Shown here: one piece after another, positions 700 through 59,004 of the stretch
Position numbering within the stretch: position 1 is the stretch's first letter
How the letters are laid out: each line of letters opens with the position of its first letter
Assembly: GCA_017964785.1 (NCBI GenBank)
Contig: JAGCRH010000107.1
Coordinates: 1-59,762, forward strand
DNA from: Prevotella sp.
GTDB taxonomy: Bacteria; Bacteroidota; Bacteroidia; Bacteroidales; Bacteroidaceae
Length of the DNA: 59,762 bases
Direction of reading: 5' to 3'
Translations under genes and position numbers: made by a program
Notes under the pieces: generated by a model
What the model saw: only the letters and a program-made list of their open reading frames with translations
The model's database searches: none
What the model was told of the DNA's origin: nothing

Positions 700-752
700 A
701 GTGGGACAGACTTTTTCAGATGGCTGATGTCTGAGGGGTGAGGGCTGACCAC
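700..752. repeat. 53-bp repeat, copy 1 of an inverted pair
   Basis: Nearly identical, in reverse orientation, to 5565-5617. The copies share AGTGGGAC, GACTTTTTCAGA, GGCTGATGTCTGA and GAGGGCTGACCAC and differ at only a few positions. This copy lies just beyond the 3' end of gene 766-1296. The other copy supplies the stop codon of gene 5607-6308. Confidence 0.85.
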
Positions 753-11511: not shown

Positions 11512-12897
11512 TTAAGCCTCATTCACCAGCATTGGCATCTGGAGCAGGGTCTTCGACTGCAACTTGGGACTTTCGTTCCTGAGCAGGAAGGCTCGCGACG
11601 GGTCGGAGAAATAGAATACGATATTGTCCTCGTCGAGCAGATCGAGCAGATCGAGGGTCGATAAAATCTTCATGCCTATCTTGAAGCCCTGCGGCAGGAA
11701 GGCGTCGGTCTGCTGCACGGGGACGCGCTCGGAACCCGACTTGGAGTTGAGCATGTTGGAGGCTTCGATGACGAACGCGGTGCCGTCGCCGAGCATCGTG
11801 GCCATGTTCGACGAGCCGTCGGCAGAGAGTTGCACGCGGCGCAGCGCCATCTTCAGCGTGTCGCGGCTCATCTGTACTTTATAAGGATTGTCACGCGGGA
11901 TGACGCTCTCATAGTTGGGGTACCTGCCCTCGATGCAGAGCGCCACAAAGTTGACGCCGAGGGTGGAGAACTGCAGGCGGCGGCTGTCGGCGGTGACGGT
12001 GATGTTGATGGCCTGCTGGAAGGCGGCGTTGATGGTGGCCATCACGGTCTTCGGCACAATCAACTTCGCCGAGCCTGGCTCGCCCGTCTGCGGGTCGAGG
12101 GCGGGAAAGGTCTTGTAGTCGAGATAGCCCACGCCCGTCTCGATGACGTTCTTGTAGAACTTATGGCCGTCGCTGGCCACCACGACGAGGTGGTCGGCAA
12201 AGGTGTCGAGACAAACGCCGTTCATCACGGGGCGCAACTCGTCGTTGGCGGCACAGGTGCGGGCCTCGCGGACGGGACCGAGCAGCGACGGCGACTCGAT
12301 GCGGAAGCGGCAGATGGGCTCGGGGATGGCGGCGAGTTCCTGCTGGAGGGTGGCGAGGCCGTCGGTGCTGTTCTGCTCCTGGAGGGCGGCCACCTGCGCG
12401 GCGAGTTCCTCACGGCGGCGGTCGCGGTCGTCACCACGGGTCACGAGCGTCGGCGACTCGGGGTACTCGTCGGCGGCATCGTAGGAGAGCGACATCTGAC
12501 CGTCCTGATAGTCGATAGTCATCAGGCGCTGGCCGTCGGCACTCTCGTCGAACGTCACCGTGCAACGGCGGGCGGCGGGCAGCAGCGAGAACGTCTCGCG
12601 CAGATCGGCATAGGGCAGGCAGACGGGATGCCAGTGCTCCTTCGTGTCCTCCTGCAACATGTGGACGCATGGCACCATCTCGATGTCACCGTCGTCGTTG
12701 GTCTTCGGATCGGCGCAGTCGGCGGTCAGCCACGAGTCGGTGTTCGAGCCGGTCAGCCGGAACATGCCAGCCTGCTTGTCCCAGTCGAGTTTCACGTCGC
12801 CCAGTATCGGCAGGGCGCTCTTGTTGGAGATAACGGGTTTCATCATGTCGAGGATTCGCTTAAATCCTGCGACGTCAATCGTAATTACGTTTTGCAT
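11512..12897 (-). CDS. dnaN: DNA polymerase III beta sliding clamp
   Basis: 461 residues against about 370 for bacterial clamps. N-terminal FKRILDMMKPVISNKSALPIL is the standard clamp opening. SDGHKFYKN, LIVPKTVMATIN and VALCIEGRYPNYESVIP with the clamp loader-facing region are also typical. The C-terminus (LLQMPMLVNEA) corresponds to the clamp end. An extra helical segment at about 154-192 (RRREELAAQVAALQ) sits between domains 1 and 2 and explains the extra length. It acts as a ring that tethers a polymerase to DNA. No polymerase or clamp loader is in this window, so it probably works with the host Pol III. Starts at ATG 12897. Confidence 0.9.
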   Translation of the reverse strand: MQNVITIDVAGFKRILDMMKPVISNKSALPILGDVKLDWDKQAGMFRLTGSNTDSWLTADCADPKTNDDGDIEMVPCVHMLQEDTKEHWHPVCLPYADLRETFSLLPAARRCTVTFDESADGQRLMTIDYQDGQMSLSYDAADEYPESPTLVTRGDDRDRRREELAAQVAALQEQNSTDGLATLQQELAAIPEPICRFRIESPSLLGPVREARTCAANDELRPVMNGVCLDTFADHLVVVASDGHKFYKNVIETGVGYLDYKTFPALDPQTGEPGSAKLIVPKTVMATINAAFQQAINITVTADSRRLQFSTLGVNFVALCIEGRYPNYESVIPRDNPYKVQMSRDTLKMALRRVQLSADGSSNMATMLGDGTAFVIEASNMLNSKSGSERVPVQQTDAFLPQGFKIGMKILSTLDLLDLLDEDNIVFYFSDPSRAFLLRNESPKLQSKTLLQMPMLVNEA

Positions 12898-12951
12898 AAT
12901 GTTTGAATGTTTTTTAATTTGTGAATATTATTTGATTTCTTTTTACATCGT

Positions 12952-13134
12952 TCAACAACCTTGCGGATAGTCACTCTTCTTCGGCGGCTGCTCCACCTTA
13001 ACATACTTCGACGTGTGAAGGCAATGGTCAATCCATTGGTCCTCGCAGCCGTCGTATTGTGTCCTGCCCAGTCCGAGCACATACAACTGGCAAGTTTTCT
13101 TGTAGCGGCACTGTTTACCCTTGCATAATGTCAT
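12952..13134 (-). CDS. Cysteine-rich small protein, 60 aa
   Basis: Starts MTLCKGKQCRYKKTCQLYV. Six cysteines, with CxxxxC and CxxxxxC spacing, suggest metal binding. The stop overlaps no downstream gene; its start overlaps the stop of the gene upstream by 4 nt. No family recognised. Confidence 0.65.
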   Translation of the reverse strand: MTLCKGKQCRYKKTCQLYVLGLGRTQYDGCEDQWIDHCLHTSKYVKVEQPPKKSDYPQGC

Positions 13135-13349
13135 GGCCTGCCTCCTTTCTTCTCTTTGAGTTCGTCACTCACGGGATTGCTGATACCAATCTCGCCCTTG
13201 AAATTCTCTTCGATGTACGTCTTGAACCTATACATATCGCGGCGCTCCAGCAGTCCCGTCGAACTGACGGCACGGTAGAACATCGCGACGTCCGAGCCGC
13301 TGACCCTCACCTCCAACTCCCCACTCGGGGTCTTTCCAAAATGAAACAT
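13131..13349 (-). CDS. Hypothetical protein, 72 aa
   Basis: Starts MFHFGKTPSGELEVRVSG and ends with a basic ELKEKKGGRP tail. Short beta-rich N-terminus, helix in the second half. No known motif. Coupled to the cysteine-rich gene downstream. Confidence 0.65.
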   Translation of the reverse strand: MFHFGKTPSGELEVRVSGSDVAMFYRAVSSTGLLERRDMYRFKTYIEENFKGEIGISNPVSDELKEKKGGRP

Positions 13350-13354
13350 AATCT

Positions 13355-13786
13355 TTATTTTTTTAAGTCAATGATTTTCTCCTCGTCGCGACACCGCAGA
13401 TTCAGCAGGTCGTCGAGCGCATAGACATCCACATGGCCGCCGTTCACCTCCTTGCTGCGCGAGAGCCACGACTGGCAGAGCAGCATCACGTCGGCAGGCG
13501 AGGCGAACTTCGCGTGGTAGCCGTCGAGCAGTACCGCCAGTCGGTGATAACAATACCCCTGCCGCTGATACGGCGGGTGCTGCCATTCGATGTGGTAGCC
13601 GTCGGCCAGTCCGCGCCCACCGGCACAGAGCCAGTCGAACAGCCGTTGCAACAGTTCGCCGTCGGCCCCGACAAACACGATGGCCAGTACGTCGTCGTTC
13701 TCCCCCTGCCAGTCGTAAGCCATCGCGATGTTGCGTCGCGGGTGCTCTGCAGGTCTCAGTCTCTTCACTCCTATCTGTGGTGGCAT
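13355..13786 (-). CDS. Hypothetical protein, 143 aa
   Basis: Starts MPPQIGVKRLRPAEHPR; a later Met (MAYDWQGEN) is an alternative start. Contains IVFVGADGELLQRLFDWL and a C-terminal VYALDDLLNLRCRDEEK. Alpha/beta composition, no catalytic motif that I recognise. It lies between the helicase loader and small genes in the replication operon. Confidence 0.65.
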   Translation of the reverse strand: MPPQIGVKRLRPAEHPRRNIAMAYDWQGENDDVLAIVFVGADGELLQRLFDWLCAGGRGLADGYHIEWQHPPYQRQGYCYHRLAVLLDGYHAKFASPADVMLLCQSWLSRSKEVNGGHVDVYALDDLLNLRCRDEEKIIDLKK

Positions 13787-13801
13787 ATCTCTTTCTCCTT
13801 T

Positions 13802-14557
13802 CTATCTTTTCATTCTCAAATCCTCACCCTCAAAATAGACGCGCACCGTGTTGCCGACAAGGCGGGAAAAGATGCGCTGGTCGTAGCGGGCTGGCAGTAT
13901 CTGGCCGAAGGTTGGCGACTCGGGGTCGTCATCCTTGCCGCCGAAGAGTTGTATCTGCGTCAGGTTTGTCGAACAGATGAGCAGTTTGTCACGGTCATTG
14001 CAAATGTCCACCAACTCGGCGAAATAATTGTGCGTCTCACCATAGACCTTCGCAATCGGTTCGGTACCCACGTCATCGACACACACAATCTTGCAACGCT
14101 CTATCTCGCTCCACCGGGTCCTCAGTTCCTTTGCAAGGAAATAATTGTAGATGGGATGCCCAACGCTACCGTCGGAAAAGCGCACCTCGATAAGCGTCTT
14201 GAACAGCACGGGCAGAATATCACGGGTGATGACGGTTTTGCCCCTGCCGCAGTCGCCGATGCACATCAGACCCTTGCCCTTATTGTCGGCGAGCCAGTCC
14301 ACCACGCCGTCGTACTCCGGCAACCACTGCGCGTCAGGGCCGATGGCGTATACCAGACCGCGCATCAGTTGCAGGTCTGCCGACGGCAATGTCCAGCGCA
14401 CCTTCGTGTCGCCCTTGAAACCGCCGTTGCGCCGATACTGACGGGCAATGTCACCCATCAGTGCCGTGCGGTCTTTCTTCTTCGACCGTGCCTGCTCCGC
14501 CTCGATACGCTCCTTCTCGGCCAGCAACTTCGCCCTCTGCTCGTCCGTCAAGTCCAT
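13802..14557 (-). CDS. DnaC-like AAA+ helicase loader
   Basis: 251 residues. Residues 1-40 are a charged helix. Walker A GDCGRGKT (101-108), Walker B IVCVDDVG (157-164) and sensor-1 STN (196-198) give the DnaC/IstB-type ATPase layout. QRIFSRLVGNTVRVYFEG at the C-terminus contains the arginine-finger/sensor-2 region typical of DnaC. It should load the host replicative helicase at the element's origin. The DnaD-like gene directly upstream (30-nt gap) fits a primosome module. Confidence 0.85.
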   Translation of the reverse strand: MDLTDEQRAKLLAEKERIEAEQARSKKKDRTALMGDIARQYRRNGGFKGDTKVRWTLPSADLQLMRGLVYAIGPDAQWLPEYDGVVDWLADNKGKGLMCIGDCGRGKTVITRDILPVLFKTLIEVRFSDGSVGHPIYNYFLAKELRTRWSEIERCKIVCVDDVGTEPIAKVYGETHNYFAELVDICNDRDKLLICSTNLTQIQLFGGKDDDPESPTFGQILPARYDQRIFSRLVGNTVRVYFEGEDLRMKR

Positions 14558-14587
14558 AATTCTTTTATGTATATATGCGTATATGCG

Positions 14588-15757
14588 TTACCATTTGTCT
14601 TTATATTTGCGCGGCTTGGGTTTAGTGGCGGGGACGGGATCACCTGGCTTCGGTGGTGTCGTGGGCTGTACCCCACCCTGCCATTGGGCAACGGGACGGT
14701 CGCCGTGCTCTTTACGAAAACTCTCGAAAGTACGGACACGAGCCCGCCAGTCAATCATCGGCTTACCATCCTTCAACGTCCATCCCGACTGACAACAGGC
14801 ATCGTAGAAACCATCGGCAGTGACATAGAGAAACGGTTTACCCTGTTGGGCACGTTCGTCGAAGTAGGCTTGTATCTCTTTCAGCGTGGGCGGGTTGTCG
14901 GCCACAGAAGGCTTGTTTTTGCCCTTTTGGGGCGATTTGGCGGGTTTTTCTTTCGCCGGCGGAGTATTTTGCATCCCCGACTTTTTCACACCGCCAGGAG
15001 CCCCGTCTTTGCCGTCAGGGGATTTTTCTTCCGTTTTACCATCGTCGGGCGCGTCGCCCCCCATACCCCCTATATTACCATTATCATTATCTATATTCTT
15101 ACTCTTACTCGCACTCTCTGATTGGGCGGGCTCGTCGCCTGCGCCTACGCGAGGATTTTTTGAGTTATTTTTGATGGTATTTTTAGACCCTTTTTTACCA
15201 TCTTTTCCGTCCGTTCTTAAACGCTCTGCATCGGGGTCGCTGTCAGCGTCGTCAGGCGAGCCTATGGCAACAATATTTCCATCGCCCGTCTCCTCGGTCT
15301 GATCGTTATCAATCGTCAGTTCATAACCATTATCTATATACATACGAGGTTGTATCAGCGTCTCGCCTTCGATGATAACCATCCCGCGCAGATACAATTC
15401 TTGCAGACCGTGTATCAGTCCAGGTCGCGGGCCGCTGGCTCCGCTCACGGCGATGGCTTCGGCAAAATACTTAATCGACTGATACTCACCATTCTTAGCC
15501 TTCTTCTGACATTGGAGGCAACGGAACGTCAACGACCGTTCGTTCTTAGGTTTCAGATCAAAGTCAGAGAGGCTGATAGCACCGGGTTTGGGCTGTAAGG
15601 CCAGCACGTTCAACAGATCGAAATAGACCCCCTTTGCCACCCACGAACAACATCTGTACCGGCGACTGCTGAGCAGGTCGCGTGAGAACATATAGAAACC
15701 CTTGCGGGTGGTACTTACCCTCATTCCCCGGGTAGTCTTTATCTTATTCCTTGCCAT
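14588..15757 (-). CDS. DnaD/replisome-organiser-like protein
   Basis: 389 residues. The N-terminal 140 residues contain YMFSRDLLSSRRYRCCSWVAKG and IHGLQELYLRGMVII, the winged-helix layout of phage replisome organisers. Residues about 141-285 are low-complexity (Asp, Gly, Lys, Pro, Asn). The C-terminal part has PTLKEIQAYFDERAQQGKPF and FYDACCQSGWTLKDGKPMID, a module seen in Bacteroidota phage replication proteins. It probably binds origin DNA and recruits the adjacent DnaC-like loader. Start ATG 15757; a long leader (15758-15997) with TTTTGCA repeats precedes it. Confidence 0.7.
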   Translation of the reverse strand: MARNKIKTTRGMRVSTTRKGFYMFSRDLLSSRRYRCCSWVAKGVYFDLLNVLALQPKPGAISLSDFDLKPKNERSLTFRCLQCQKKAKNGEYQSIKYFAEAIAVSGASGPRPGLIHGLQELYLRGMVIIEGETLIQPRMYIDNGYELTIDNDQTEETGDGNIVAIGSPDDADSDPDAERLRTDGKDGKKGSKNTIKNNSKNPRVGAGDEPAQSESASKSKNIDNDNGNIGGMGGDAPDDGKTEEKSPDGKDGAPGGVKKSGMQNTPPAKEKPAKSPQKGKNKPSVADNPPTLKEIQAYFDERAQQGKPFLYVTADGFYDACCQSGWTLKDGKPMIDWRARVRTFESFRKEHGDRPVAQWQGGVQPTTPPKPGDPVPATKPKPRKYKDKW

Positions 15758-15997: not shown

Positions 15998-16029
15998 CAA
16001 AATTAGTTACGTTCAAAATGAATTAGGGA
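15998..16029 (-). promoter_or_regulatory. Leftward promoter for replication genes
   Basis: TAATTTTG (16005-15998) fits the -7 consensus. Upstream, TTGTCCCT (GTCCC at 16029-16025) sits 18 nt away from the box after the hexamer, one or two bases closer than in the GTCCCA promoters of the late genes. It should drive 15757 and the loader. Confidence 0.5.
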
Positions 16030-16045
16030 CAATTTTCCGCCGCGT

Positions 16046-24142: not shown

Positions 24143-24175
24143 TATTTGTCGATTTTTATAAATTATTTCCGCCTG

Positions 24176-24208
24176 CAAAGTAAGAAAAAAGAAAATAAAA
24201 AATGGGAC
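24176..24208 (-). promoter_or_regulatory. GTCCCA-class promoter for gene 24142
   Basis: Leftward GTCCCA (24208-24203), 19 nt, TTACTTTG (24183-24176). The -7 box is one base off consensus. GTCCCA is also the far arm of the terminator hairpin. Confidence 0.55.
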
Positions 24209-26781: not shown

Positions 26782-27594
26782 TTAATTAAAAAGTTCCTTG
26801 CAGAGCATTTCATAGTCGATGCCGACGGGCGAGTAGGGCTTGTAGTCGTAGATGTCCTTGGCCATCGTCTGGGCCTCGTTCATTTTCACGTTGCGACGGA
26901 TCATCGTCTGACAGACATAACCCTGATACGACCGGCGCAGGTAGTCCACGAACTCCTTCACAATCTTCGGACGGGCGTCCACCATCGTCGGCAGCAGACC
27001 GCGCAACTTCAAATTAGGGTTTAGTTCCGACTGAACTTCGCGCATCGCCAAAATGATATTGCCGAGTCCGTTCACGCTCAGTCCCTCCATCTGGACGGGA
27101 ACCAGCAAGCCTGTGGCAACGGTCATCGCATTGTAGGTTGATTGACTCAGTGCGGGCGGACAGTCTATCAACACGTAGTCGAAACTCTCGATGATGGTTG
27201 TCAGCCCGATGTCCGTGTGGTCGTCTAACGGCAGACCAAAGCACTTCTGCAGTACCTTTTTCGGGTTCATCTGCCGGAAGAGGTCTGAGTCCACGTCCTG
27301 CATCGTCGTGTCGCCTGGCACGAGAAACACGCCCTCGCGGGTCGTCCGATACACGGGGATGTTCGTAGCGTGACGCATCGCCGAGTAAATCGTCGGGATG
27401 TTCATGTGGTCGTTCGCCGCACTCCAGCCGTGGAGGATGCTCAGGTGCATCTGCGGGTCGAGATCCACCACCAGCACGCGGTAGTCCTTATGTTCCCTGA
27501 CGAGTGCCGCCGCCAGTGATTGTACGGTGGTGGTCTTGCCTACCCCACCCTTGTTGTTGACAACAGCCAACACTTCTTTCAGTCTTGTTACCAT
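26782..27594 (-). CDS. parA: ParA partition ATPase
   Basis: 270 residues. Deviant Walker A KGGVGKT (15-21), Walker A' VVDLDPQ (42-48) and Walker B LIDCPPA (about 148-154) define ParA/Soj. There is no N-terminal HTH extension, so it is of the small type Ib or Soj-like class. Together with the two downstream genes it forms an active partition module. It has an ordinary promoter (TTTG at 27672-27669, 20 nt, TAAATTTG at 27648-27641), with AT-rich repeats beyond that could be the centromere. Confidence 0.9.
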   Translation of the reverse strand: MVTRLKEVLAVVNNKGGVGKTTTVQSLAAALVREHKDYRVLVVDLDPQMHLSILHGWSAANDHMNIPTIYSAMRHATNIPVYRTTREGVFLVPGDTTMQDVDSDLFRQMNPKKVLQKCFGLPLDDHTDIGLTTIIESFDYVLIDCPPALSQSTYNAMTVATGLLVPVQMEGLSVNGLGNIILAMREVQSELNPNLKLRGLLPTMVDARPKIVKEFVDYLRRSYQGYVCQTMIRRNVKMNEAQTMAKDIYDYKPYSPVGIDYEMLCKELFN

Positions 27595-27640: not shown

Positions 27641-27672
27641 CAAATTTACAAAATACACACGAAACTTCCAAA
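27641..27672 (-). promoter_or_regulatory. Promoter of the parA operon
   Basis: TTTG, 20 nt, TAAATTTG: an exact Bacteroidota housekeeping promoter. It lies 47 nt upstream of the parA ATG. Confidence 0.7.
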
Positions 27673-31445: not shown

Positions 31446-31471
31446 ATACATTATATTTATTAATTATGGCG

Positions 31472-31503
31472 CAAAGATACAATAAATATCTTGTACTACC
31501 AAA
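31472..31503 (-). promoter_or_regulatory. Leftward promoter of gene 31445
   Basis: TTTG (31503-31500), 20 nt, TATCTTTG (31479-31472): exact consensus. The spacer contains a degenerate ACAAT-type operator half (31480-31498). Confidence 0.7.
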
Positions 31504-31520: not shown

Positions 31521-31693
31521 ACAATATATATATTAACTTTTAACCTTCATTCAGTAAGACAATATATATATTTACAGAAATTAAGAAAACGAAGCAACAA
31601 ACAATATATATATTTAATTTTTGCGAAAAGATTTGGAACTTAAAGATATTATTTCTATCTTTGCAACCCATTTCGCTTCAAAATATATATTGT
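31521..31693. promoter_or_regulatory. Four operators ACAATATATATATT
   Basis: Exact copies ACAATATATATATT at 31521-31534, 31559-31572 and 31601-31614, and an inverted shorter copy AATATATATTGT at 31682-31693 abutting the ATG of the HTH gene. The arrangement between divergent promoters strongly suggests autoregulation by the product of 31694. Confidence 0.7.
31632..31663 (+). promoter_or_regulatory. Rightward promoter of the HTH/zinc-ribbon gene 31694
   Basis: TTTG (31632-31635), 20 nt, TATCTTTG (31656-31663). A perfect housekeeping-type promoter between operator 3 and operator 4. Confidence 0.75.
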
Positions 31694-31939
31694 ATGGATA
31701 TCAAGGGAGTTATCAACAGACAGGGTTTCACGATGCAGCAGGTGGCCGACGCACTCGGCATCTCGCAGCAGGCCGTGAGTCAGGCCGTCAACGGCAACCC
31801 ATCGCTTTCCCGACTCAGGGAGATTGCGCAAGCCATCGGCGTGACCGTCTCGGAACTGGTGGCCGACGCACCCGCGCCGCCCAGTCCTTTGATGAAGTGT
31901 CCCCATTGCGGGCACACCCTGACCGTCGAATTGAAATAA
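31694..31939 (+). CDS. XRE-family repressor with C-terminal zinc knuckle
   Basis: 81 residues from MDIKGVINRQGFTMQ; this ATG is chosen over upstream Met codons because the promoter -7 box at 31656 would overlap an earlier start, and because its paralogue begins MDI too. Helix-turn-helix at about 13-50 (MQQVADALGISQQAVSQAVN). Linker SELVADAPAPPSP, then KCPHCGHTLTVELK, a CxxC zinc knuckle. Same architecture as 59132-59449 (MDI start, SELVAD, CPxCG). Likely a repressor of its own and the divergent gene. Terminated at 32029-32062. Confidence 0.85.
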   Translation: MDIKGVINRQGFTMQQVADALGISQQAVSQAVNGNPSLSRLREIAQAIGVTVSELVADAPAPPSPLMKCPHCGHTLTVELK

Positions 31940-32083: not shown

Positions 32084-32503
32084 CTAAATCTCAAATGTCA
32101 GCATCGTCCTGCCGCTGGTCGAGTCAACCTCAAACCGCCCAAGACCGATGACATCCATCCCGATCAGCACATCCATATCGCCTGTCGGCAGTTCTCAAAC
32201 AGTCATCTTCAACGGTGCATAGTCTGCCGATAGCGACAGACAGGCTTCGTAGGCGTGCGACAAAAACACGCCGTTGGCCGTGTTCACAGGTCTTGGCGGC
32301 TGGTCGAGCCGTCGCAGTCCGAGGGCATTGACCACACCAGTCACTACTCCCGTATCGCTTGCTCCTGTGTCCCAAATCCCCTTGCACCTGATACACCGCT
32401 TGTCGGCGGGGAAGTCGCCATGCACCACATCAACCTGCCATAGCAGTTCTGATGCTTTCGATGGGTAAGGGTGCTTGATTGCCAGTAAACTCATACACTT
32501 CAA
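32084..32503 (-). pseudogene. Retropepsin-like aspartic protease with in-frame TGA
   Basis: Reads through as 139 codons with one TGA at 32197-32195 (codon 103). Before it lies GIWDTGASDTGVVTG with the catalytic DTGAS (45-49). Directly after the TGA the same frame continues ELPTGDMDVLIGMDVIGLGR, the characteristic C-terminal strand of retropepsin-like proteases, to TAG at 32084. Both halves fit one family, so the TGA either kills the gene (a single change from CGA or TGG) or is read through. Likely start is MSLLAIKH (32494). Overlaps the small gene 32430-32576. Confidence 0.75.
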
Positions 32504-32602: not shown

Positions 32603-32636
32603 CCAAGATAAGTCGCTCTCGCTTATGATTTGGGAC
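32603..32636 (-). promoter_or_regulatory. GTCCCA-class promoter of the protease locus
   Basis: Leftward GTCCCA (32636-32631), 20 nt, TATCTTGG (32610-32603; one mismatch to TAnnTTTG). Spacing matches the other promoters of this class. Confidence 0.5.
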
Positions 32637-34127: not shown

Positions 34128-34160
34128 CAAAATTAATGTCTGACTTTCCGAAAATGGGAC
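34128..34160 (-). promoter_or_regulatory. GTCCCA-class promoter of the ncRNA
   Basis: Leftward GTCCCA (34160-34155), 19 nt, TAATTTTG (34135-34128), consensus -7 box. Divergent partner of the packaging-operon promoter. Confidence 0.6.
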
Positions 34161-34173
34161 AAGTGGCCAGATA

Positions 34174-34207
34174 GTCCCATTTTACTCTCGACCTGACATT
34201 AATTTTG
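34174..34207 (+). promoter_or_regulatory. GTCCCA-class promoter of the packaging operon
   Basis: GTCCCA (34174-34179), 20 nt, TAATTTTG (34200-34207), consensus -7 box. No TTTG at -33. The start codon of the first gene is at 34235. Confidence 0.7.
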
Positions 34208-34234: not shown

Positions 34235-34966
34235 ATGAGTCAACTATCACAGAGTTATCTGGAGAAGGTGGTGGCGTGGACGCACGGCGGCGTGGCCATC
34301 GAGCGGATGAATATGACGCTGGAACAGAAGTTCAGGGCGCAGATGTGCCTGGAGTGCTACCGTGTGTTTATGAACAACCCGGCGACGCCGATACGCACCA
34401 TCGTGAAGAACATCGCGGCGCGGGACTACAAGCAACTGATGGACTGTGCCGACATGGGTAATCAGGCGAGCATCGAGATGGCACAGGCGCTGGGGGTGCA
34501 TCGGCATCCCGAGACGGGGGCGATATCGCTCCGTAGCGAGACAAACATCTCAAATGATATCTGGCTCGTGAATCAGCTGCTGGCACGGCTGAACACCTCG
34601 AAGAAGCACATCCACCTGGCGATGGTCGAGGCAAACGTGGAGTGGCTCTCGGAGTACGGGCGTCAGACGGGCACGTGGCAGGCGGTGAAGGAGGCCAACC
34701 AGGAGATGTTCAAGCTGCACAACGACTTCAAGGACGATGACGATCCGCAGGAGCAGATGCCGAACACGAACATCAACATCACGGGCGACGTGAGCGTGGT
34801 GAAGGAAGGTCGCGAATCGCTCAGCGACGAGGAGCGCGAGAAGCTGCGCAAGAAGTACGGTCTGACCGACAAGGAACTGTCGCAGGAACTGGAGGAAATC
34901 AACGGCGTGTGGCAGCCCGTGGACGATGAGGAAGAGAAACCCGATATTTTTGACGAGAACCTATGA
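34235..34966 (+). CDS. Probable small terminase or packaging accessory protein
   Basis: 243 residues from MSQLSQSYLEKVVAWTHG (ATG 34235). Helical N-terminal 150 residues with KNIAARDYKQLMDCADMG and HIHLAMVEANVEWLSEYG. C-terminal third with NTNINITGDVSVVKEGRE and a coiled SLSDEEREKLRKKYG. The place, first in the operon with the large terminase and in the expected size range, suggests the small subunit; no HTH is obvious. Overlaps the next gene by 4 nt. Confidence 0.5.
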   Translation: MSQLSQSYLEKVVAWTHGGVAIERMNMTLEQKFRAQMCLECYRVFMNNPATPIRTIVKNIAARDYKQLMDCADMGNQASIEMAQALGVHRHPETGAISLRSETNISNDIWLVNQLLARLNTSKKHIHLAMVEANVEWLSEYGRQTGTWQAVKEANQEMFKLHNDFKDDDDPQEQMPNTNINITGDVSVVKEGRESLSDEEREKLRKKYGLTDKELSQELEEINGVWQPVDDEEEKPDIFDENL

Positions 34967-35319
34967 CAAAGAAAAAAAAGAAGCAATACGACTACGACGA
35001 CTGGGAGGATGCGCCCAGCGCCGACGAGATACCGACGGGCAACGGCGACGCATTCCAGGTGCATCTGTCGGACTATGTGATTCCCGAGAAGGTCGCGGCC
35101 TTTCAGTCGGCCTTTGCGCCTGCGCCGGAGGGTATGGACGACACGAGCGAATATGTGGAGGTGTTCGACGATGCCCGTCTGCGCACCTACTTCAAGGCTT
35201 ACGTCTGCGGACTCGGCGATCCGCTGAAACTGTATATCGAGGACTTGAAACTGGCGGGCTTCCGCATGCAGGTCAGCGTCACCGGCAAGCCCTGCATCTT
35301 CGCCATCAGAAAGGGATAG
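34963..35319 (+). CDS. Hypothetical packaging-operon protein, 118 aa
   Basis: Starts MTKKKKKQYDYDDWEDAP. Basic N-terminus, acidic disordered region to about 30, then a mixed domain (DYVIPEKVAAFQSAFAPAPE; LKLYIEDLKLAGFRMQVSVT). No family. It overlaps its upstream neighbour by 4 nt and is 4 nt from the terminase, so it is translationally coupled to both. Confidence 0.7.
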   Translation: MTKKKKKQYDYDDWEDAPSADEIPTGNGDAFQVHLSDYVIPEKVAAFQSAFAPAPEGMDDTSEYVEVFDDARLRTYFKAYVCGLGDPLKLYIEDLKLAGFRMQVSVTGKPCIFAIRKG

Positions 35320-35323
35320 GATT

Positions 35324-37324
35324 ATGGCAGAGACGAGAGACGTTTACATGAACCGCATGCAGATGCTCATCTTCTACGCGATGGCAAAGGACCTGTGGGT
35401 GGAAGCAGCCCGCCGCTTTGGCAAGACTGATGGCGTCATAGGTCCTCGCATCTGGGCGGCAGCCGACTCACAGCCGCAGGGTGCAGGCGGATTCCTCGGA
35501 GCGAGTCGCAAACAGTTGTTTTCGCGTACAGTGCCGGGTGTGATTGCCGCCATCGAACGTTTCTATGGCATGAAGGAAGGCACGCATTTCGGTTGGGGCA
35601 AACCGCCGAAGGGTACGCCGCCGTGCATCATCCGACCAAAGTCGTATGAGAACTGTCTGTGGTTTGCCAACGGCCATCTGATCCACACCCTCTCGCTCGC
35701 CACACTTGGTTCGGCCAACGGTATGACGCTCAACGAACTCTTCGGCGACGAGTGCAAGTTCCTGCCGAAGAAGAAGATCGATGAAGAGGTGATGCCAGCC
35801 TTGTCGGGTATGGTGCATCCGCTGGGCGACCGCCGTTTCTCGGAAGAGAACCCCTACTATAAGAGTACCTGTTTCGTGAGTGACGCCTCGCTGTCGAACC
35901 GTGGCAACTGGCTCGGCAAGGGTGAGGAAAAGATGCAGGATGTGGTGAACGACGGCGGACCGTGCGACGGCATGACCTATCAGCAGATCAAGGATGAACT
36001 CGACGCCTATGCCGGGCGGGTCATCTTCTTCAACGAACTGTTGCGATCGGCGAAGAAGAGTGGGCACCGTGTGCAGGTGGTCTCAGCCGACACCAAGGAG
36101 CGCATCCTCGCACTCGCCGCCGCCGTGGAGCGCCGCGAGGGACAGTTCCGCATCATCCCCCGCCAGTACGGCGTAGATACCAAGGGTACCATCGACACGC
36201 TGCTGTCTTACAAACTCATCGAGCAGGCCGACGCGGAGTTGCTATACGACTACAAATACCTGATTACGCACGACGAGCAGATGGAGATGTTTGCCATCCG
36301 CAACTCGAAGAAATACCAGAAGCATATCAACGATCTGCGCTGTGCGGCGTTCTATTACATCCGTGCTTCGTCGCTCGACAACATCGACATCCTGGGCGAG
36401 GACTATATCCGGCGCATGAAGCGCGACCTGCCGCCGCTGGTGTTTGCCATCAGCATCCTGAACATCCGTCCGAAGAAGAGCGGCGAGGGTTTCTACTGCA
36501 ACTTCGACCCCGATATCCATACCTACATCGACGACGACTGCCCGGCGGTGAACGACTCGTATAAAATCAAGCAGGGCAAGCAGATTGTCGGAGGCACGGC
36601 CTATGGTACGGAGTATGAGAGCCCTGACTTCGACTATCTGAGCAACATCAAGGACTGCACGCTCGACGGCGACCTGCGCGACGACCTCGACCTGGAGGTG
36701 GCACTCGACTACAACAACCTGATCAACTGGATCTGCATCGGGCAACTCTACAAGCGCGGCGGGGTGGAGACGCTGAATGTCATCAACTCGATGTTCGTGA
36801 AGAACGGCGGTATGATTCAGGACCTGATACGCGACTTCGACCGCTACTACACGCCGCACAAGAAGAAGAACCGCAAAATCAACTATTACTACTCGCACAC
36901 GGCGAAGTTCAAACTCCACGGCATCTCGATGGACGACATCAAGGACACGGTAATCAAGGAACTGCGCAAGTACGGCTGGGAGGTGAACCCCATCGACATG
37001 GGACAGGCACCGGGCCACATGCAGAAGTATAAGGACATCAACGAGGCGTTTGCGGGCTTCGGCTATCCCGCCATCGCGTTCAACAAGCAGAACAACGAGC
37101 CGTTGACGGCGGCGGTGGAACAGTGCGACGTGAAACTCAGTTACGGGCGCAACGGATCGACGTTCTCGAAGCAGAAAGGCGGTGAGAAACTCTCTGTGGA
37201 CGCTCAGGATGCGACGCCGGAGGAACTCCGCACCGACGGAACTGACGCTTTCGACGAGCTCTACATGGGCGTGAAGCACTTCCGTCAGGGTTTCTCGATG
37301 CTGATGACGCCGAGCGGGAACTAA
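35324..37324 (+). CDS. Terminase large subunit
   Basis: 666 residues. Walker A-like EAARRFGKTDG (residues about 27-37), then LNELFGDECKF (about 137-147) as Walker B with catalytic Glu, define the packaging ATPase. The C-terminal half contains LEVALDYNNLINWICIGQLY (about 457-476), the RNase H-fold nuclease strand with its metal-binding Asp, and later KYGWEVNPIDMGQAPGHM. Its role is to translocate and cut concatemeric DNA at the procapsid portal. No portal or capsid gene follows in this window. Confidence 0.85.
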   Translation: MAETRDVYMNRMQMLIFYAMAKDLWVEAARRFGKTDGVIGPRIWAAADSQPQGAGGFLGASRKQLFSRTVPGVIAAIERFYGMKEGTHFGWGKPPKGTPPCIIRPKSYENCLWFANGHLIHTLSLATLGSANGMTLNELFGDECKFLPKKKIDEEVMPALSGMVHPLGDRRFSEENPYYKSTCFVSDASLSNRGNWLGKGEEKMQDVVNDGGPCDGMTYQQIKDELDAYAGRVIFFNELLRSAKKSGHRVQVVSADTKERILALAAAVERREGQFRIIPRQYGVDTKGTIDTLLSYKLIEQADAELLYDYKYLITHDEQMEMFAIRNSKKYQKHINDLRCAAFYYIRASSLDNIDILGEDYIRRMKRDLPPLVFAISILNIRPKKSGEGFYCNFDPDIHTYIDDDCPAVNDSYKIKQGKQIVGGTAYGTEYESPDFDYLSNIKDCTLDGDLRDDLDLEVALDYNNLINWICIGQLYKRGGVETLNVINSMFVKNGGMIQDLIRDFDRYYTPHKKKNRKINYYYSHTAKFKLHGISMDDIKDTVIKELRKYGWEVNPIDMGQAPGHMQKYKDINEAFAGFGYPAIAFNKQNNEPLTAAVEQCDVKLSYGRNGSTFSKQKGGEKLSVDAQDATPEELRTDGTDAFDELYMGVKHFRQGFSMLMTPSGN

Positions 37325-38955: not shown

Positions 38956-41900
38956 TTACTTGTACTTACTCACGAACTTCAATCCCGACTGCACTTCGTC
39001 GATGAGCCCGCCGGTGCCGTACTTCTGGATCTTCGCGGGGATGCCGTTCTTCTGCATGGCGGCGACGGTCTGGGCGAACACACCGATGGCGGCGGTCAGT
39101 GCGCGTGCGTCCTCCGAGGTCAAGTCGGTCTGTTGTTGCGAGGTCGCCTGACCGCTCGGCATGTCTGTCGGTCGGATGGCACTGGCCAGGTCGCTCAGGT
39201 TGCCCTCGTCGAAGGTGCGGGCCTTGCGGGTAGTCATGCCCTTGTCGAACATCACCAGGTCGCGCAGCAAATCAGGCCGGTTCATCTGTATGGCGCGAGT
39301 GGTTTTCCTACCAATCACAATCTCTGGGCCTCTTTCGCCCACCAAGGCTTGCTGGCCGTTGACGGTGGTAGCGATGGGTTCGGTAATCATACTTACCCCG
39401 CTCGGCAGCGACTTCTGGCTGCGAGCCTTATACACGCGACCATCATCACCGACGACCGTCTGCACATTTCCTTCATCATACGTCAGCATGCCAGACGCCA
39501 GTTTCACCTTTTTGGCCGGAGAGTTCGTGTTATTGCTGTTGTTGGATGCGAAGGCAGCGGCGAGCAGTCCGTGTAGCACGGCGGCGATGACGGGGATAAG
39601 TGCGAGACCCCACCAGCCGAGTTGTCCTACGGTCTTGGCGGCGGCGCTGGCCGTACCTGCGGCCACATCGACCTGTGCCTTGCTCAGTGCCTCCGACTTC
39701 GACTGATCGTTCATCATCTTCTCCATAATCATGTTCTGCGCGTACTGCGCCATCATGTCGATGATGCTGTCGCCGACGGCCTGCGCCATCGACTGCCATA
39801 TCTCTTTCCACGTCAGCGAGTCGTCCTCCACGCCGCGTATCATCTCACCGAACTTCTTGCCTATTTTCTGTGCGCCATCCTGAATGGGCTTTGTCAGGCT
39901 GTTGATGGTCTGCACGCGCTTCTGCATCTCCTGCGAAATCTTTGTGGCCATCAAAATCTGTGTATCAAGGAGTGCCGTCTGACGCTCTTTCAACAGGTCT
40001 TCGAGACCCATGCGGCGTTGTGCGAACTCTGCATCAATGGCTGCCTCGTCCTCACCGGCGGCAATGCGGGCGGCACGCTCTTCGGCCCATGCGGCTTCTT
40101 TCTGTGCCAATTGTTGCTCGATGTCGGCTACCTCGCGGGCTCGCCACTCCATACGTTTCTGTATGAGCAGCACTTCCGGGTCTTCGGCTATCGAACCCAG
40201 TCCCTGCTGTTCCCAGAAGGTTGCACCGATGCCCGTGTCTCTCACCTTGGCCTTATTCTCCAGTTCCGTGGTGGTGCGCTCTTCTTCGTCGGTATAGCCC
40301 GCCGCACGGAAGCGCTGTTCTTGCTGCTGCTTCTCGAAGTTGTACGACTCCTTGCGCTTCTTGTAGTAGTTGTCCTCGGCATCCACCAGCGAGAGGTAGA
40401 ATGCCTGAATCTCCTGTTTGTAGCGACTGCTGTTGCGGAGCCACTTGTCGAAGTCTTCTTGGAAGGTCTCGGCCCACGACGAGAAGTGGAACTCCATTCC
40501 GTTCTGTCCTATCGACACGGTAGCCTCGGTGAGTTCGCGCAGCCACTCGGCCAGTTCGTCGGAGTCCTCGTAGTTGACGGCCATCGACTTGCTGCCGTTC
40601 TGTATGAACTTCATGGCTGCCGTGGCGATACTCTGTCGGCGCTGGCGCTGTATGTCCTCCTCAGTAGCGGGTGCCGTGTAGTTTGGTTTCAGTGTCTCGG
40701 CGGGGTTGGCATTGGCAGCGTCCTGTATGCGCTTGGCGGCGGCGCGAGCCGATTCGGTGAGCAGTCCGAGTTGCGTCAGGCGGTTGTCGAACTGGTCGAT
40801 GGCCTGCTGCAGGAAGTCATACTGCTTCAACATCTTCTCCACCTCCTTGGTGCTGTTGTTCAGAATGCGCTGCACCTCGCGGTCGTTGCCAGCCGCATTC
40901 TTATTCAGTTTGTCGCGCATGGCCGTGCTGCTGATACCCTCCACGCCTGCCTTGTCAATGTTGCCGAGGGCGGTGCGCACATTTTCGAGTTTCACTTTTA
41001 AGATGTCATCGAGCAGGTGCTGCGACATATCGCTGGTATCAAACATCAGGTCGCCGATGCGCTGTTTGGTAATCTCCCACGACTTTTCGTCGCGTCCCGA
41101 GATGCCGCGCCGTGCGTCGGCGAGTGCTTGGTTCTTGGCCATGTTCAGTTGGTCAATCATCATGTCGGCCTGCTTCTGCGTCCACGTGCCGTCGGCGGCA
41201 TACGAGGTGATAATCGTCTCTTGCAGACGGTACCACTCCTCAATCTTCGAGATGATGGCGTCGCTGTCGCGCTGTGCGTCCTGCAATTCCTTTCGCAGTG
41301 CCTGCTTGTATTCCGCCTCTGCTTTCTGTTGCTCGCGAAGTTCAGCCTTAGTCAAACGATCACTGTCGATAGGAGTGATGGGCTCCTGCTTGTTCTGATC
41401 GGCAAGATAGGAATCAATGGCATCCTGCTCGGGCTTCCACTTCTTGTTGACTTTACGCATGGCATTCTCTGCGGCACGGTCTTGGCGCAGGAAACTGCCA
41501 GCGGCGAGCAAGGCGTTGGCCTTATCCAGGAACTTACTATTAATGATATTGCCGTAGTTGTTGAACTCACGATTGCCCGCAGCGGCCTGCGTGGCCACCT
41601 CGTCGATAATCTGCTGCGGCAGATTGTAATATTGCTTACCGATTTGGCGCACAAGGTCGTTGATATTCTTACCTTGGTTGTCCTGCGCAAAACCTGTAAT
41701 CCAGTCGGCACCGTACTGACCGAGACCAGCGGCCTGGACACGCTGTTCGTATTCTGTGCGACGCTCGGCACGCCACTGTTCACGCGGCAATACCTGTTCG
41801 TTGATATCCTTCTCTTTCAGTTGCAGGGCGAGTTTGGCACGCAAGGCTTTCGTCACCTCATTATAGGCATTAGCCACGTCGATGGCGGTACTCTTTTCCG

Positions 41901-44900
41901 TCAGAAGGTTCTTCATATACTGACCAAACTTGCTGTTGAAAGTCTGGATGGCTGCCTGACGCTGCTTAGTGCCCTTGTTGGCTTCGTCGATGGCCTTCTT
42001 ATAGCGGCGCAACTCTGCCTCGCCCTTACCATATTCTGTATTTAGGTCGGAAAGGTCTTTCTTGAAGCCTTTCATAAACTCTGAATTGCGCTGCAGTTCC
42101 TCGTTGAGCGACTTGAAGTGGGAATAGAGCGTAGCAACACCCATTGCCACACCAGCGATGATGCCAGCCCAACCTGCAAACGATAAACCACGAATGGCCG
42201 TACTAATAGCGGCAATCAGTCCGCCGAGTTCCCTGATTTTTGTTATCAGTGCAGCGCCGCCAGCCCACATGCCCCAAGTGGCGAAACCAGTAATCAATGC
42301 AGGAATCATCTCGACAATGAGTTTCATTATGCCAAAGATGCCTTGCAATACAATCTTGATGACGGTAGCGCTGGCTTCAGTCTGTGTCAGCGACTTCGAT
42401 ACATCGTACCAAGCCTTTGCAAACTCCTTGGTCAGGTCAATGCCTTCTGGATTGACAAAGGCTTTCTCCCACATATTAGCGGCACGCTGCATGTAGGCTT
42501 CGGCGGTTTCCATCTGGATGGCATACTCCTGAGCCACGGCAGAACCCTCGCTGAATGCCTGACTTGATGTATGCAGGTGTGTTTTCAGCATGTCGATGCG
42601 GTCTGACATCGTAATCATCACGTTGTTCAGACGGGCACCGTCAGAGCCGAGGGCCTTGAATACGCCTTGTGCTTTCAACTGGTCCATGTTCATGCCGTGC
42701 ATCTTGTCGAAAACGGTCACGATGGCTTCCATTGTCTTACCCTCATTGATAAGTGCTGCCAGTTCGCCCTTTTGCATCTGGAGCGACTGCTCGATAGCCT
42801 TGGTGTTACTCTGTATGCTGGTGAATACTTTGTTGAATGCAGTAGCAGATACCTCGGGCATCAGACCCATAGCATCTGAGGCACTACCGAGGGCGAGCAA
42901 CTGGTCGGTCGTGATGTGCGACACGTTGGCCAAGCCCATGAGTCGTTTCGAGAACTCGATGATATTACCTCCCGTCGCAGTAGAAGTAGATGCCAGTTTG
43001 AAGATGGCAGAACCTGCCGAGTCCATTGCCTTCTCCACACCCATCTTCGGAATCAAGCCCATCACCTCGACGAGTTTCGAGATGGCCATCATACTATCCT
43101 CACCAAGATCTTCTTTCAGGGCATTGTTGACCTTAACGGCACTTTTCACAAACGACTCCAGTCCTTCTATACCATAGTTGCCGAAACCGAGTTTAGAGCC
43201 AACGTATGCCAGTTCGTTCAGTTCCTTGATGCTGGAGCGGGTGTCAATCTTAGCGAGGTTCTTGGTGAGTTGGGTGATATCACTCATGGCCAAACCTGAT
43301 ACCTTACGGATATTGGCCAACTGATCAGAGAAGGCGAGGTTAAGTTTCAGAATCTCCTGGAGTTTGTTCTTGATCATATTGAACATGCCGAACACACCGA
43401 CATAGGCCGTGATGTTCTTGACGGCAGTGCTCCAGACGGAGTTCTGCTTGCTTGCTGCCTGCGTCACCTCGTCGATGGCACCCTTCAGTTTCTTCATCTG
43501 AAGCTGCGTCTCGCGGATTTCCTTCTTCTGTCCCGTATTCAGCGACATCAGCTTTTGCTGCAAAGTGTTGTAGGCTTGCTGCAACTCATAGACGGAATGC
43601 TTGCCCGTTTCGCCAGCAACTTTCTCTGCATTGGCAAAGTCCTGCGTCTGTTGCTTGCATTTCTGGATTTGCTCTTGTACCATACGCTTCTTACGGGCAA
43701 CCTCTTCGGCTTCGGCCTTTTGATTGCCTGAGAGACGTTTCTCCTGTGCTTCAAGATTCTTCAAAGCGGTTTCCAGTCTTTCAACCGAAGCGGTAGAAAG
43801 ACCATCCTCGCTGTCGAAATCAAGTCCGTCAAGTGATATCTCGTCAATCAGTTCCCTGATGTCTTGCAACTTGTCTTTTGTCTGGGAGAGTTTCATGGTG
43901 TCGTCAGGATCAAGGTTTACGCCCTCCATCTTCTTGACTTGCTCCTGCAATGCTTTTTCGGCTATTGTCAGTTCATCAAGGGAAACCTTCTCGCCGCGAT
44001 AGGCTCTGATGACAATCTCAGACGCTTCAGCCTCTTTCTGCTGAGCCTGTGCAAGTTCGTGCCATTTGGGCGTCATTTGCTCAATGGCAGCGTCGATTTC
44101 CTGAATATCTCTTTTGAGCTGGTTGTAGCCCAATTCGTCGGGCTTCATCCGAGCGAACTGCTCCTTTCCAGCCTTTGACGCTTCTTGCAGTTCTTCGAGC
44201 GAATAATTGCCAGGGTATTGGGCCATTGGGCGAATATAAGTGGTGTTCAGTTCGTTTCGAGCAGCTTTTATTCGCTTCATATCCTCTTCAATACGTCTGG
44301 TGGCATCTTCATCGACGCCCTTGACCTCCTTTAACTGCAATTCGTAGTTCTTCAAGGCGGTGTTGAGGTCTTTCAGGCTGACGGCTTGGTCGAAGTTCAG
44401 TTTACTCATTACCTCTTCGGTCTGCTTTCTCGCAGAGCGCAATTCGGTAATCTGACGCTCTTCGTCAATAGCCTTTTTCAATTCTGTATTGACGGCTTGG
44501 AGTCGATTGATGGCATCGTCACTGATGCGGAAGAAACCGTCGGCACCTTCTGTGGCTGTGTATAGGCTTTGCAGTCGTTTCTGTTCTGCACGGAGCTGTT
44601 CCGTGTTCATCTGGCTCAAATCAGCATGGCCTGCAACACCAAGTTCGTTGACAGCAATCTGGGCACGGTATTGCTTGGCATAGCCTTGGTATCTTTCACG
44701 AGTGGTAGCGGATGTGGTCTTTGCCGCTTCCTCCTGTACGGCCTGCAGCCCTTGCTTCAACTTGTCGAGCGAGGCATTGTTGAGGTTCTTCAACTGTGCC
44801 TCGGCATCTTTCAGCGACATAGTGAGTCCACGGCGGTCGGAGAGTTCACGCTTGAGGTCGGCCACGACATCGCGCAACTTCTCCAGCTTGGCCTTGCCTT

Positions 44901-45228
44901 CGTCGGTGGATGAAGAGGTCTTGTTGAACTCCTTGGATGTCTCGCGGAGTGCTCGGTTCAGGTCTTTGCCGATGTGACCTGATATGTCGCCCATCACCTT
45001 GTCAATGAGTTCCATGCCGCGCAGCATCTCGTTGATCTTCGCCTTGGTGTCCTCGGCGAGTTTCTGCATCTGCTTGAACTCGGAGGTGTCGGTCTTTCCC
45101 TCGGCCCGCATCTTGTTCAACTGCTCGTTGATGTCGGCATAAATCTGCTTCAGTTTCTTACCGTCATCAATCGCCTTGACCGCATTCGTCGTAATGGTTA
45201 CGACCGCATTTACGTCATGTAGTGCCAT
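38956..45228 (-). CDS. Phage tail tape-measure protein
   Basis: 2090 residues. N-terminal 600 residues are almost continuous coiled coil. Residues about 640-900 carry the tape-measure core (SDITQLTKNLAKIDTRSSIK; TSTATGGNIIEFSKRLMGLA; ATAFNKVFTSIQSNTKAIEQ). Around 940-1040 is a set of hydrophobic segments, and another near 1865-1900, for membrane insertion. The C-terminal part has LVGERGPEIVIGRKTTRAIQ, a common tape-measure tail motif. Family knowledge: the length sets the tail length, roughly 0.15 nm per residue, here about 300 nm. It runs opposite to the packaging operon, from its own GTCCCA promoter. Confidence 0.9.
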   Translation of the reverse strand: MALHDVNAVVTITTNAVKAIDDGKKLKQIYADINEQLNKMRAEGKTDTSEFKQMQKLAEDTKAKINEMLRGMELIDKVMGDISGHIGKDLNRALRETSKEFNKTSSSTDEGKAKLEKLRDVVADLKRELSDRRGLTMSLKDAEAQLKNLNNASLDKLKQGLQAVQEEAAKTTSATTRERYQGYAKQYRAQIAVNELGVAGHADLSQMNTEQLRAEQKRLQSLYTATEGADGFFRISDDAINRLQAVNTELKKAIDEERQITELRSARKQTEEVMSKLNFDQAVSLKDLNTALKNYELQLKEVKGVDEDATRRIEEDMKRIKAARNELNTTYIRPMAQYPGNYSLEELQEASKAGKEQFARMKPDELGYNQLKRDIQEIDAAIEQMTPKWHELAQAQQKEAEASEIVIRAYRGEKVSLDELTIAEKALQEQVKKMEGVNLDPDDTMKLSQTKDKLQDIRELIDEISLDGLDFDSEDGLSTASVERLETALKNLEAQEKRLSGNQKAEAEEVARKKRMVQEQIQKCKQQTQDFANAEKVAGETGKHSVYELQQAYNTLQQKLMSLNTGQKKEIRETQLQMKKLKGAIDEVTQAASKQNSVWSTAVKNITAYVGVFGMFNMIKNKLQEILKLNLAFSDQLANIRKVSGLAMSDITQLTKNLAKIDTRSSIKELNELAYVGSKLGFGNYGIEGLESFVKSAVKVNNALKEDLGEDSMMAISKLVEVMGLIPKMGVEKAMDSAGSAIFKLASTSTATGGNIIEFSKRLMGLANVSHITTDQLLALGSASDAMGLMPEVSATAFNKVFTSIQSNTKAIEQSLQMQKGELAALINEGKTMEAIVTVFDKMHGMNMDQLKAQGVFKALGSDGARLNNVMITMSDRIDMLKTHLHTSSQAFSEGSAVAQEYAIQMETAEAYMQRAANMWEKAFVNPEGIDLTKEFAKAWYDVSKSLTQTEASATVIKIVLQGIFGIMKLIVEMIPALITGFATWGMWAGGAALITKIRELGGLIAAISTAIRGLSFAGWAGIIAGVAMGVATLYSHFKSLNEELQRNSEFMKGFKKDLSDLNTEYGKGEAELRRYKKAIDEANKGTKQRQAAIQTFNSKFGQYMKNLLTEKSTAIDVANAYNEVTKALRAKLALQLKEKDINEQVLPREQWRAERRTEYEQRVQAAGLGQYGADWITGFAQDNQGKNINDLVRQIGKQYYNLPQQIIDEVATQAAAGNREFNNYGNIINSKFLDKANALLAAGSFLRQDRAAENAMRKVNKKWKPEQDAIDSYLADQNKQEPITPIDSDRLTKAELREQQKAEAEYKQALRKELQDAQRDSDAIISKIEEWYRLQETIITSYAADGTWTQKQADMMIDQLNMAKNQALADARRGISGRDEKSWEITKQRIGDLMFDTSDMSQHLLDDILKVKLENVRTALGNIDKAGVEGISSTAMRDKLNKNAAGNDREVQRILNNSTKEVEKMLKQYDFLQQAIDQFDNRLTQLGLLTESARAAAKRIQDAANANPAETLKPNYTAPATEEDIQRQRRQSIATAAMKFIQNGSKSMAVNYEDSDELAEWLRELTEATVSIGQNGMEFHFSSWAETFQEDFDKWLRNSSRYKQEIQAFYLSLVDAEDNYYKKRKESYNFEKQQQEQRFRAAGYTDEEERTTTELENKAKVRDTGIGATFWEQQGLGSIAEDPEVLLIQKRMEWRAREVADIEQQLAQKEAAWAEERAARIAAGEDEAAIDAEFAQRRMGLEDLLKERQTALLDTQILMATKISQEMQKRVQTINSLTKPIQDGAQKIGKKFGEMIRGVEDDSLTWKEIWQSMAQAVGDSIIDMMAQYAQNMIMEKMMNDQSKSEALSKAQVDVAAGTASAAAKTVGQLGWWGLALIPVIAAVLHGLLAAAFASNNSNNTNSPAKKVKLASGMLTYDEGNVQTVVGDDGRVYKARSQKSLPSGVSMITEPIATTVNGQQALVGERGPEIVIGRKTTRAIQMNRPDLLRDLVMFDKGMTTRKARTFDEGNLSDLASAIRPTDMPSGQATSQQQTDLTSEDARALTAAIGVFAQTVAAMQKNGIPAKIQKYGTGGLIDEVQSGLKFVSKYK

Positions 45229-45257: not shown

Positions 45258-45291
45258 TAAAGGTAATGCCGCAAACAATCCAATTTGGGAC
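45258..45291 (-). promoter_or_regulatory. GTCCCA-class promoter of the tape measure
   Basis: Leftward GTCCCA (45291-45286), 20 nt, TACCTTTA (45265-45258; last base off consensus). Back-to-back with the promoter of 45371. Confidence 0.6.
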
Positions 45292-45307: not shown

Positions 45308-45340
45308 GTCCCATTTTGGCGGGAAAATGTTGTATCTTTG
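45308..45340 (+). promoter_or_regulatory. GTCCCA-class promoter of gene 45371
   Basis: GTCCCA (45308-45313), 19 nt, TATCTTTG (45333-45340). The opposing GTCCCA elements of this promoter and the tape-measure promoter are separated by 16 bp and form an apparent dyad. Confidence 0.7.
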
Positions 45341-48471: not shown

Positions 48472-48505
48472 CAAATATAGCACCGAGCCAAAATGTTTTT
48501 GGGAC
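48472..48505 (-). promoter_or_regulatory. GTCCCA-class promoter of the HU/amidase operon
   Basis: Leftward GTCCCA (48505-48500), 20 nt, TATATTTG (48479-48472). Two further copies of the word lie near: TGGGAC at 48467-48472, directly abutting the -7 box, and CGGGAC at 48517-48522. Confidence 0.7.
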
Positions 48506-58972: not shown

Positions 58973-59004
58973 CAAAGATAATACTTTTATATTATATTTC
59001 CAAA
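58973..59004 (-). promoter_or_regulatory. Promoter of the 58934 leftward operon
   Basis: TTTG (59004-59001), 20 nt, TATCTTTG (58980-58973): exact housekeeping consensus. The operator copy at 58978-58993 overlaps its -7 box and spacer. Confidence 0.75.

Follow-up and report, generated by a model that had tools for sequence, protein, structure and literature searches.

Which promoters drive the packaging operon of this Prevotella DNA, and whose protein recognises them? The sequence analysed, called the window below, is positions 1-59762 of contig C57 (59,762 nucleotides), in a genome bin of 81% completeness. We take it for a fragment of a phage or phage-plasmid, because it encodes a large terminase, a tape measure protein, an amidase, a DnaN clamp, a DnaC-like loader and ParA (Table 1). 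The fragment is incomplete, since several common head-region families (F30, F31, F34, F53, F29 and F35, found in 9 to 11 relatives) are missing from it. The packaging operon opens with a terminase small subunit-like gene that has no Pfam or PHROG match and whose family is present in all 12 contigs compared. The window also encodes a 1760-aa large polyvalent protein with LPD5 and LPD1 domains (53003-58285, minus strand). A first-pass annotation had pointed to a hexamer, GTCCCA, lying 19-20 nt before a TAnnTTTG -7 box, and had proposed that it marks a second promoter class with strict spacing, which controls the structural genes and is served by a factor that the element itself encodes.

Table 1. 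Predicted promoters and selected genes of the window; class 2 denotes promoters of the GTCCCA type.
Feature	Position	Strand	Description
Class-2 promoter, terminase operon	34174..34207	+	GTCCCA, 20-nt spacer, TAATTTTG; exact match
Divergent class-2 promoter	34128..34160	-	GTCCCA, 19-nt spacer, TAATTTTG; exact match
Class-2 promoter, gene 45371-45919	45308..45340	+	Exact match
Class-2 promoter, tape measure gene	45258..45291	-	-7 box TACCTTTA, one mismatch
Class-2 promoter, HU/amidase operon	48472..48505	-	Exact match
Class-2 promoter, gene 23474-24178	24176..24208	-	-7 box TTACTTTG, one mismatch
Possible class-2 promoter, protease-like gene 32195-32503	32603..32636	-	-7 box TATCTTGG, one mismatch
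Class-2 variant, replication region	15998..16030	-	GTCCCT-N19-TAATTTTG
Host-type promoter, ParA gene 26782-27594	27641..27672	-	TTTG-N20-TAAATTTG
Host-type TTTG promoter, gene 30507-31451	31472..31503	-	
Host-type TTTG promoter, gene 58578-58934	58973..59004	-	
F62, candidate trans factor	34963..35319	+	118-aa conserved protein; winged helix weakly predicted
Terminase small subunit-like gene	34235..34966	+	First in operon; adjoins large terminase; function assigned from position
Terminase large subunit	35324..37324	+	tblastn to annotated terminases, 26-30% identity
Tail tape measure gene	38956..45228	-	PF10145, phrog_25337
Replication region	11512..15757	-	DnaN clamp 11512-12897, DnaC-like loader 13802-14557, conserved 14588-15757
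ParA partition gene	26782..27594	-	phrog_164, E 1.5e-54

A hexamer and its distance to the -7 box

The exact pattern GTCCCA-N18..21-TAnnTTTG occurs four times in the window (34160-, 34174+, 45308+ and 48505-) against 0.01 expected, and none of 100 shuffles reaches four. GTCCCA by itself is at chance, with 27 copies seen and 26.6 expected from shuffled sequence, so the signal is the distance between the hexamer and the -7 box. When up to one mismatch in the -7 box is allowed and the spacer is held to 19 or 20 nt, eight sites are found against 0.18 expected, a number reached by none of 200 shuffles; the additional sites are 45291-, 24208- and 32636-, all three already in the first-pass annotation, and 707-, which it did not list. 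The seven GTCCCA sites named there are thus all present, although the -7 box has the exact TAnnTTTG of host sigma-ABfr promoters in only four and carries one mismatch in the other three. The GTCCCT near variant described before the replication genes (16030-) is also present and has an exact -7 box, with a spacer of 19 nt rather than 18. The scan of replicon and relatives against controls that had been proposed as a check has yielded an excess over shuffles in the window and, as described below, none in related host genomes.

Site 707- falls inside ORF 510-1076 and sits 48 nt upstream of a conserved CAAACAATGTCCGCAAGGAC element. The same element, followed by a -7-like box, is seen in the window at 626-707 (minus strand) and in two relatives (G003, 7360 and 7562; G001, 58374), and may represent a structure distinct from the promoters.

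At the head of the packaging operon two sites stand back to back. The ATG of gene 34235 lies 27 nt past the -7 box of the 34174 promoter, and the divergent pair shares letters beyond the two boxes, because its -7 regions (window 34128-34207) form a perfect 13-nt inverted repeat, GACATTAATTTTG. G003 likewise has a head-to-head class-2 pair, at 86985/87034. The divergent transcript at 34160 had been read as a non-coding RNA, a reading that is not established: no Rfam family is found in the window at gathering score, and the divergent promoter of G003 has an ATG 4 nt past its -7 box.

The position of the element is sharply defined. In the window and G003, 17 GTCCCA copies lie within 8-70 nt of a -7 box, and 15 of them begin 25-27 nt ahead of it. 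In eight phages with TGTCC, 48 of 62 copies lie at 25-27 nt, 43 of them at 27, which places the G at 26; in contig C4 all five GTACCA copies lie at 26 nt. Three control boxes gave no copy at 25-27 nt. A few sites are found at 24 nt (G003 47461, G001 41528, G007 43151). Sixty-nine promoters from 11 contigs, taken at a distance of 25 or 26 nt, include 59 at 26, and their logo is that of a single short asymmetric element; the 30 nt further upstream show no clear second half-site. In PMC6847099 the -7 element spans -12 to -5; by that numbering the G falls at about -38/-37, where the -33 element would be contacted.

How do these promoters differ from those of the host? The -7 box is identical to that of the Bacteroidota sigma-ABfr promoter (TTTG / TAnnTTTG), and start codons often follow 24-48 nt downstream, but the TTTG is replaced by GTCC-type letters slightly further upstream, at 25-26 rather than 23-24 nt. 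The 103 gene-proximal TAnnTTTG boxes of 12 contigs divide into 54 of GTCC/GTACC type and 49 others, 14 of which have TTTG 23-24 nt upstream. The class-2 boxes lack the -33 TTTG of sigma-ABfr promoters: TTG occurs in the -33 stretch of none of the 54, as against 23 of the 49 others, a difference that is partly one of definition, GTCC filling the place. The absence of TTTG proves little by itself, because the -33 motif is weak in most Flavobacterium promoters according to PMC6847099. Host-type promoters are nonetheless there. The two reported earlier before ParA (27672-) and before gene 58578-58934 (59004-) were recovered, and 31503-, before gene 30507-31451, is a third. Exact TTTG promoters precede ParA in three of its six holders (the window, G049 and C4) and, among others, XRE-type HTH genes in G001, G006 and C4.

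The window itself encodes two small XRE-type HTH proteins (31661-31939 and 59132-59449, both plus strand), whose C-terminal CPHCG/CPVCG letters look like half of a zinc ribbon. They have relatives in several phages, and AT-rich repeats upstream look operator-like.

Spellings in related phages and the genes served

Terminase searches returned seven close contigs (71-80% identity) and more distant ones; one relative sits in a contig of a Prevotellaceae metagenome-assembled genome, for which the isolate name indicates a rumen origin. The exact GTCCCA pattern is found in one of the seven close contigs, G003, where it occurs 12 times. A motif-free test for hexamers enriched ahead of all TAnnTTTG boxes recovered the element in 10 of 12 contigs with no motif named. 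GTCCCA ranked highest in the window (4 seen, 0.04 expected) and G003 (12 seen, 0.07 expected), TGTCCG in G001 (11 seen, 0.12 expected), G002 and G007 and, tied with GTGTCC, in G005, TGTCCC in G049 and G048 and, second just behind TTGTCC, in G051, and GTACCA in C4. No GTCC word emerged for G004 and G006, near duplicates that have two TGTCCG sites each.

Across related phage contigs, then, one architecture is written as GTCCCA, TGTCCG, TGTCCC, TGTCCT or GTACCA. The spelling is near-uniform in G003 (11 GTCCCA, 1 GTCCGC), G001, G002 and C4, and mixed in G005, G007 and G056. In 71 sites from 11 contigs, element positions 3, 5 and 6 depend on the phage (permutation p 0.0005 each) and position 7 does not visibly do so (p 0.29), p values that are optimistic in that sites within one phage and its relatives are not independent. 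Among contigs found through the conserved protein F62, GTCC-N21/22-TAnnTTTG occurs in 11 of the 12 searched, with 65 sites against 2 in the backwards control. G059 and G060 have one site each, and the short fragments L118 and L132 have none. In total, more than 100 sites are known from more than 20 phage contigs (71 in 11, and 65 in 11 others).

Two observations in individual phages stand beside this series. L108 (MT835542.1), a 40.8-kb human gut phage with a terminase identity of 29%, has sites at 18383-, 7562- and 428-: two read TGTCCTTTA with the G 27 nt before the -7 box, and a third TGTCCTTTA is without an exact -7 box; the promoter class may reach beyond this phage lineage. In G001 (62564-63908) very small conserved proteins are clustered, with counterparts in C4, G005, G006 and G049; the G049 counterpart stays open in a single frame, whereas the others seem to terminate in a different one, which may reflect a frameshift or an overlap between genes.

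Which genes are served by the class? Family F31, whose products have 350-534 aa and whose position assigns it to the head or packaging region, is preceded by a class-2 promoter in all 11 contigs that hold it, and F29 has one in 7 of 10. The family of window gene 45371, F20, has one in 6 of 9 contigs, with counterparts in G003, G001, G002, C4 and G048; an additional G005 site (26737-) by the start of its F20 gene was left unassigned by the script and stands outside this count. Exact class-2 promoters precede the tape measure gene in 3 of 8 holders (G003, G005 and G049) and the family of gene 23474 in G001, G049, G007, G057 and G058, which lends support to window sites 45291 and 24208 in spite of their imperfect -7 boxes. 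The HU-family gene is under class 2 in G001 too, at 14427. Site 32636 of the window has no support from orthologous promoters.

The class is also found, by position, upstream of the replication region in the window (16030), G001 (48559), G005 (18571, with three genes in between) and G007 (34181). The terms 'structural genes' and 'late' in the first-pass annotation are thus too narrow, and because replication genes are also preceded by these promoters the class is probably lytic rather than strictly late. Window counts, the hexamers of the relatives, the spacing peak and the orthologous promoters together strongly support the core of the earlier proposal, a second promoter class with strict spacing that is specific to the element.

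Possible readers of the element

What reads the element? An explanation by chance or base composition could appeal to the frequency of GTCCCA alone in the window, but is refuted by the shuffles, the motif-free recovery and the empty control boxes, and we regard it as negligible. A host-encoded alternative sigma factor or activator, borrowed by the phages, could account for several spellings as a mirror of different hosts, the host ranges being mostly unknown. The comparison covers relatives of the window's own host genome; the related phages may have other hosts, with specific factors of their own. With that genome left out, the GTCCCA pattern was found 36 times in 39 related host genomes against 67 in the backwards control, and 16 times against 18 in 23 same-genus genomes; TGTCC[CG] gave 43 against 63 in the same 39 genomes, again with the own genome left out, and 21 against 25 in the 23. 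Neither promoter pattern is therefore in excess over control in the 39 related host genomes, and the own genome holds five exact GTCCCA occurrences, four of them inside the window and one outside. This favours a factor that belongs to the phage and makes a host factor very improbable. The element might instead be the operator of a repressor that lies over the promoter and keeps lytic genes silent in a lysogen, with no activator involved. The marked promoters are indeed those of lytic genes, and the phages carry ParA and XRE-type HTH genes, so that some are probably temperate or phage-plasmids. A repressor operator, however, is usually a dyad and does not need one fixed spacing; here a single half-site stands at a near-fixed distance, and the XRE genes that were inspected mostly adjoin AT-rich sequence rather than the GTCC element. 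We consider such an operator improbable.

A very divergent phage sigma factor, whose region 4 would read GTCC and whose region 2 would read the host-like TAnnTTTG, is likewise unlikely, though less so. A sigma factor would be expected to leave such a strict spacing and a single asymmetric element where the -33 element stands, and phage late sigma factors such as T4 gp55 and SPO1 gp28/gp34 redirect host polymerase to a phage regulon. Unlike in those systems, no sigma domain was found over cut-off in 10 phage records: Sigma70_r2 had no match, in records that may be incomplete and from which a divergent factor would escape, and for region 4 nothing passed the cut-off, the four weaker matches including three on XRE-type HTH genes. 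Nor is a sigma factor among the 25 listed of the 36 Pfam families from 89 G003 ORFs. The -7 box is that of the host; its constancy is partly by design, TAnnTTTG having been demanded in all scans, and does not count against a phage sigma factor. A putative phage-encoded factor, as first proposed, fits best, because the spelling depends on the phage and related hosts are not above control.

The conserved protein F62, encoded at 34963-35319 just before the large terminase, is the best candidate, though a weakly supported one. It was found in 15 of 15 long contigs, 7 of which were fetched by F62 itself; the fragments G048 and G051 (34 and 43 kb) have the promoters, but no F62 was found in them. 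In a covariation test the nearest neighbour of F62 had the same box type in 9 of 16 cases, against 10 of 16 and 10 of 16 for the terminase genes, so F62 is not singled out, the terminase genes tracking the box spelling at least as well. In several phages F62 is itself behind class-2 promoters and would therefore not be the first trigger unless it is expressed in some other way.

A 131-aa protein of the window (6851-7246, minus strand) carries PF03118, the C-terminal domain of RNA polymerase alpha (E 2.5e-14), and has no match in 10 relatives. In host genome G047 (contigs C2, C68, C102 and C113) and in G040, repeats, among them TGTCCCACGATTTGAGACA in 4-5 similar copies and TGTCCGGTCTGACCGAGT in 5 copies, have TAACTTTG or a similar box a comparable distance downstream; they are possibly mobile-element ends or an unrelated host promoter family.

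A model of lytic transcription

Based on these observations, we propose that GTCCCA is a phage-specific upstream element of a lytic promoter class, an explanation that we consider probable. Host RNA polymerase with its primary sigma factor would still read the TAnnTTTG -7 box, and a phage-encoded protein would read the GTCC-type element in place of the host -33 TTTG. Partition and several repressor-like genes would stay under host-type promoters, while the phage factor would switch on the genes for replication, packaging, head, tail and lysis. Factor and promoters would have diverged together, as the different spellings of different phages indicate. Computed from sequence are the motif and its spacing, its occurrence at orthologous genes, the way it varies with the phage and the lack of an excess in related hosts; promoter function in vivo, a phage-encoded factor, activation and the replacement of the -33 sigma contact, as by MotA/AsiA in T4, we infer, in part by analogy.

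The closest parallel is that of T4 middle promoters. According to PMC2988021, the -35 element gives way there to a MotA box with its centre at -30, 12 bp +/-1 from a kept -10, and MotA binds its asymmetric box as a monomer. As in the present class, a phage element stands in for the host upstream element, the downstream box of the host is kept and replication genes are covered. On the DNA side the present class thus resembles T4 middle promoters, with a fixed spacing between the substituted upstream element and the retained -7 box. It differs in sequence and host phylum, and in position, the G lying mostly 25-26 nt before the -7 box, at about -38/-37, rather than at -30. The Pfam matches listed for 60 window ORFs include no family resembling MotA or AsiA. 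Packaging and tail genes also fall under the present class, whereas in T4 they are left to late promoters. The crAss-like phages infect Bacteroidales, the host order here, and encode their own RNA polymerase subunits. PMC8375218 regards a dependence of their middle and late genes on host RNA polymerase as likely, and its relevant sections describe no GTCC-type promoter. A search by title and start of abstract in open-licence full texts, a scope that most subscription journals and all preprints fall outside, returned no such promoter class.

What would such a class mean? The findings suggest that, within a family of large, uncultured Bacteroidota phages from gut and rumen, each phage carries its own switch protein for host RNA polymerase. 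A bolder reading, which we hold only as a tentative possibility, is that a lineage of Bacteroidota phages runs its lytic cycle by a form of sigma appropriation independent of T4, in which winged-helix F62 or another protein binds at about -38 to -33 and takes over the sigma contact, and in which the code has been rewritten several times. If this is true, the rewritings (GTCCCA, TGTCCG, TGTCCC, TGTCCT and GTACCA) would each span most lytic promoters of a phage, and related phages of one habitat would have different, perhaps orthogonal, promoter sets. Little is known of how phages take over the polymerase of the Bacteroidota, which form a dominant phylum of the gut and whose sigma factor is unusual. 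Offered here are a defined cis element, a set of naturally rewritten spellings in front of orthologous genes and a specific protein candidate, which could yield mutually orthogonal promoter-factor pairs for gut Bacteroidota.
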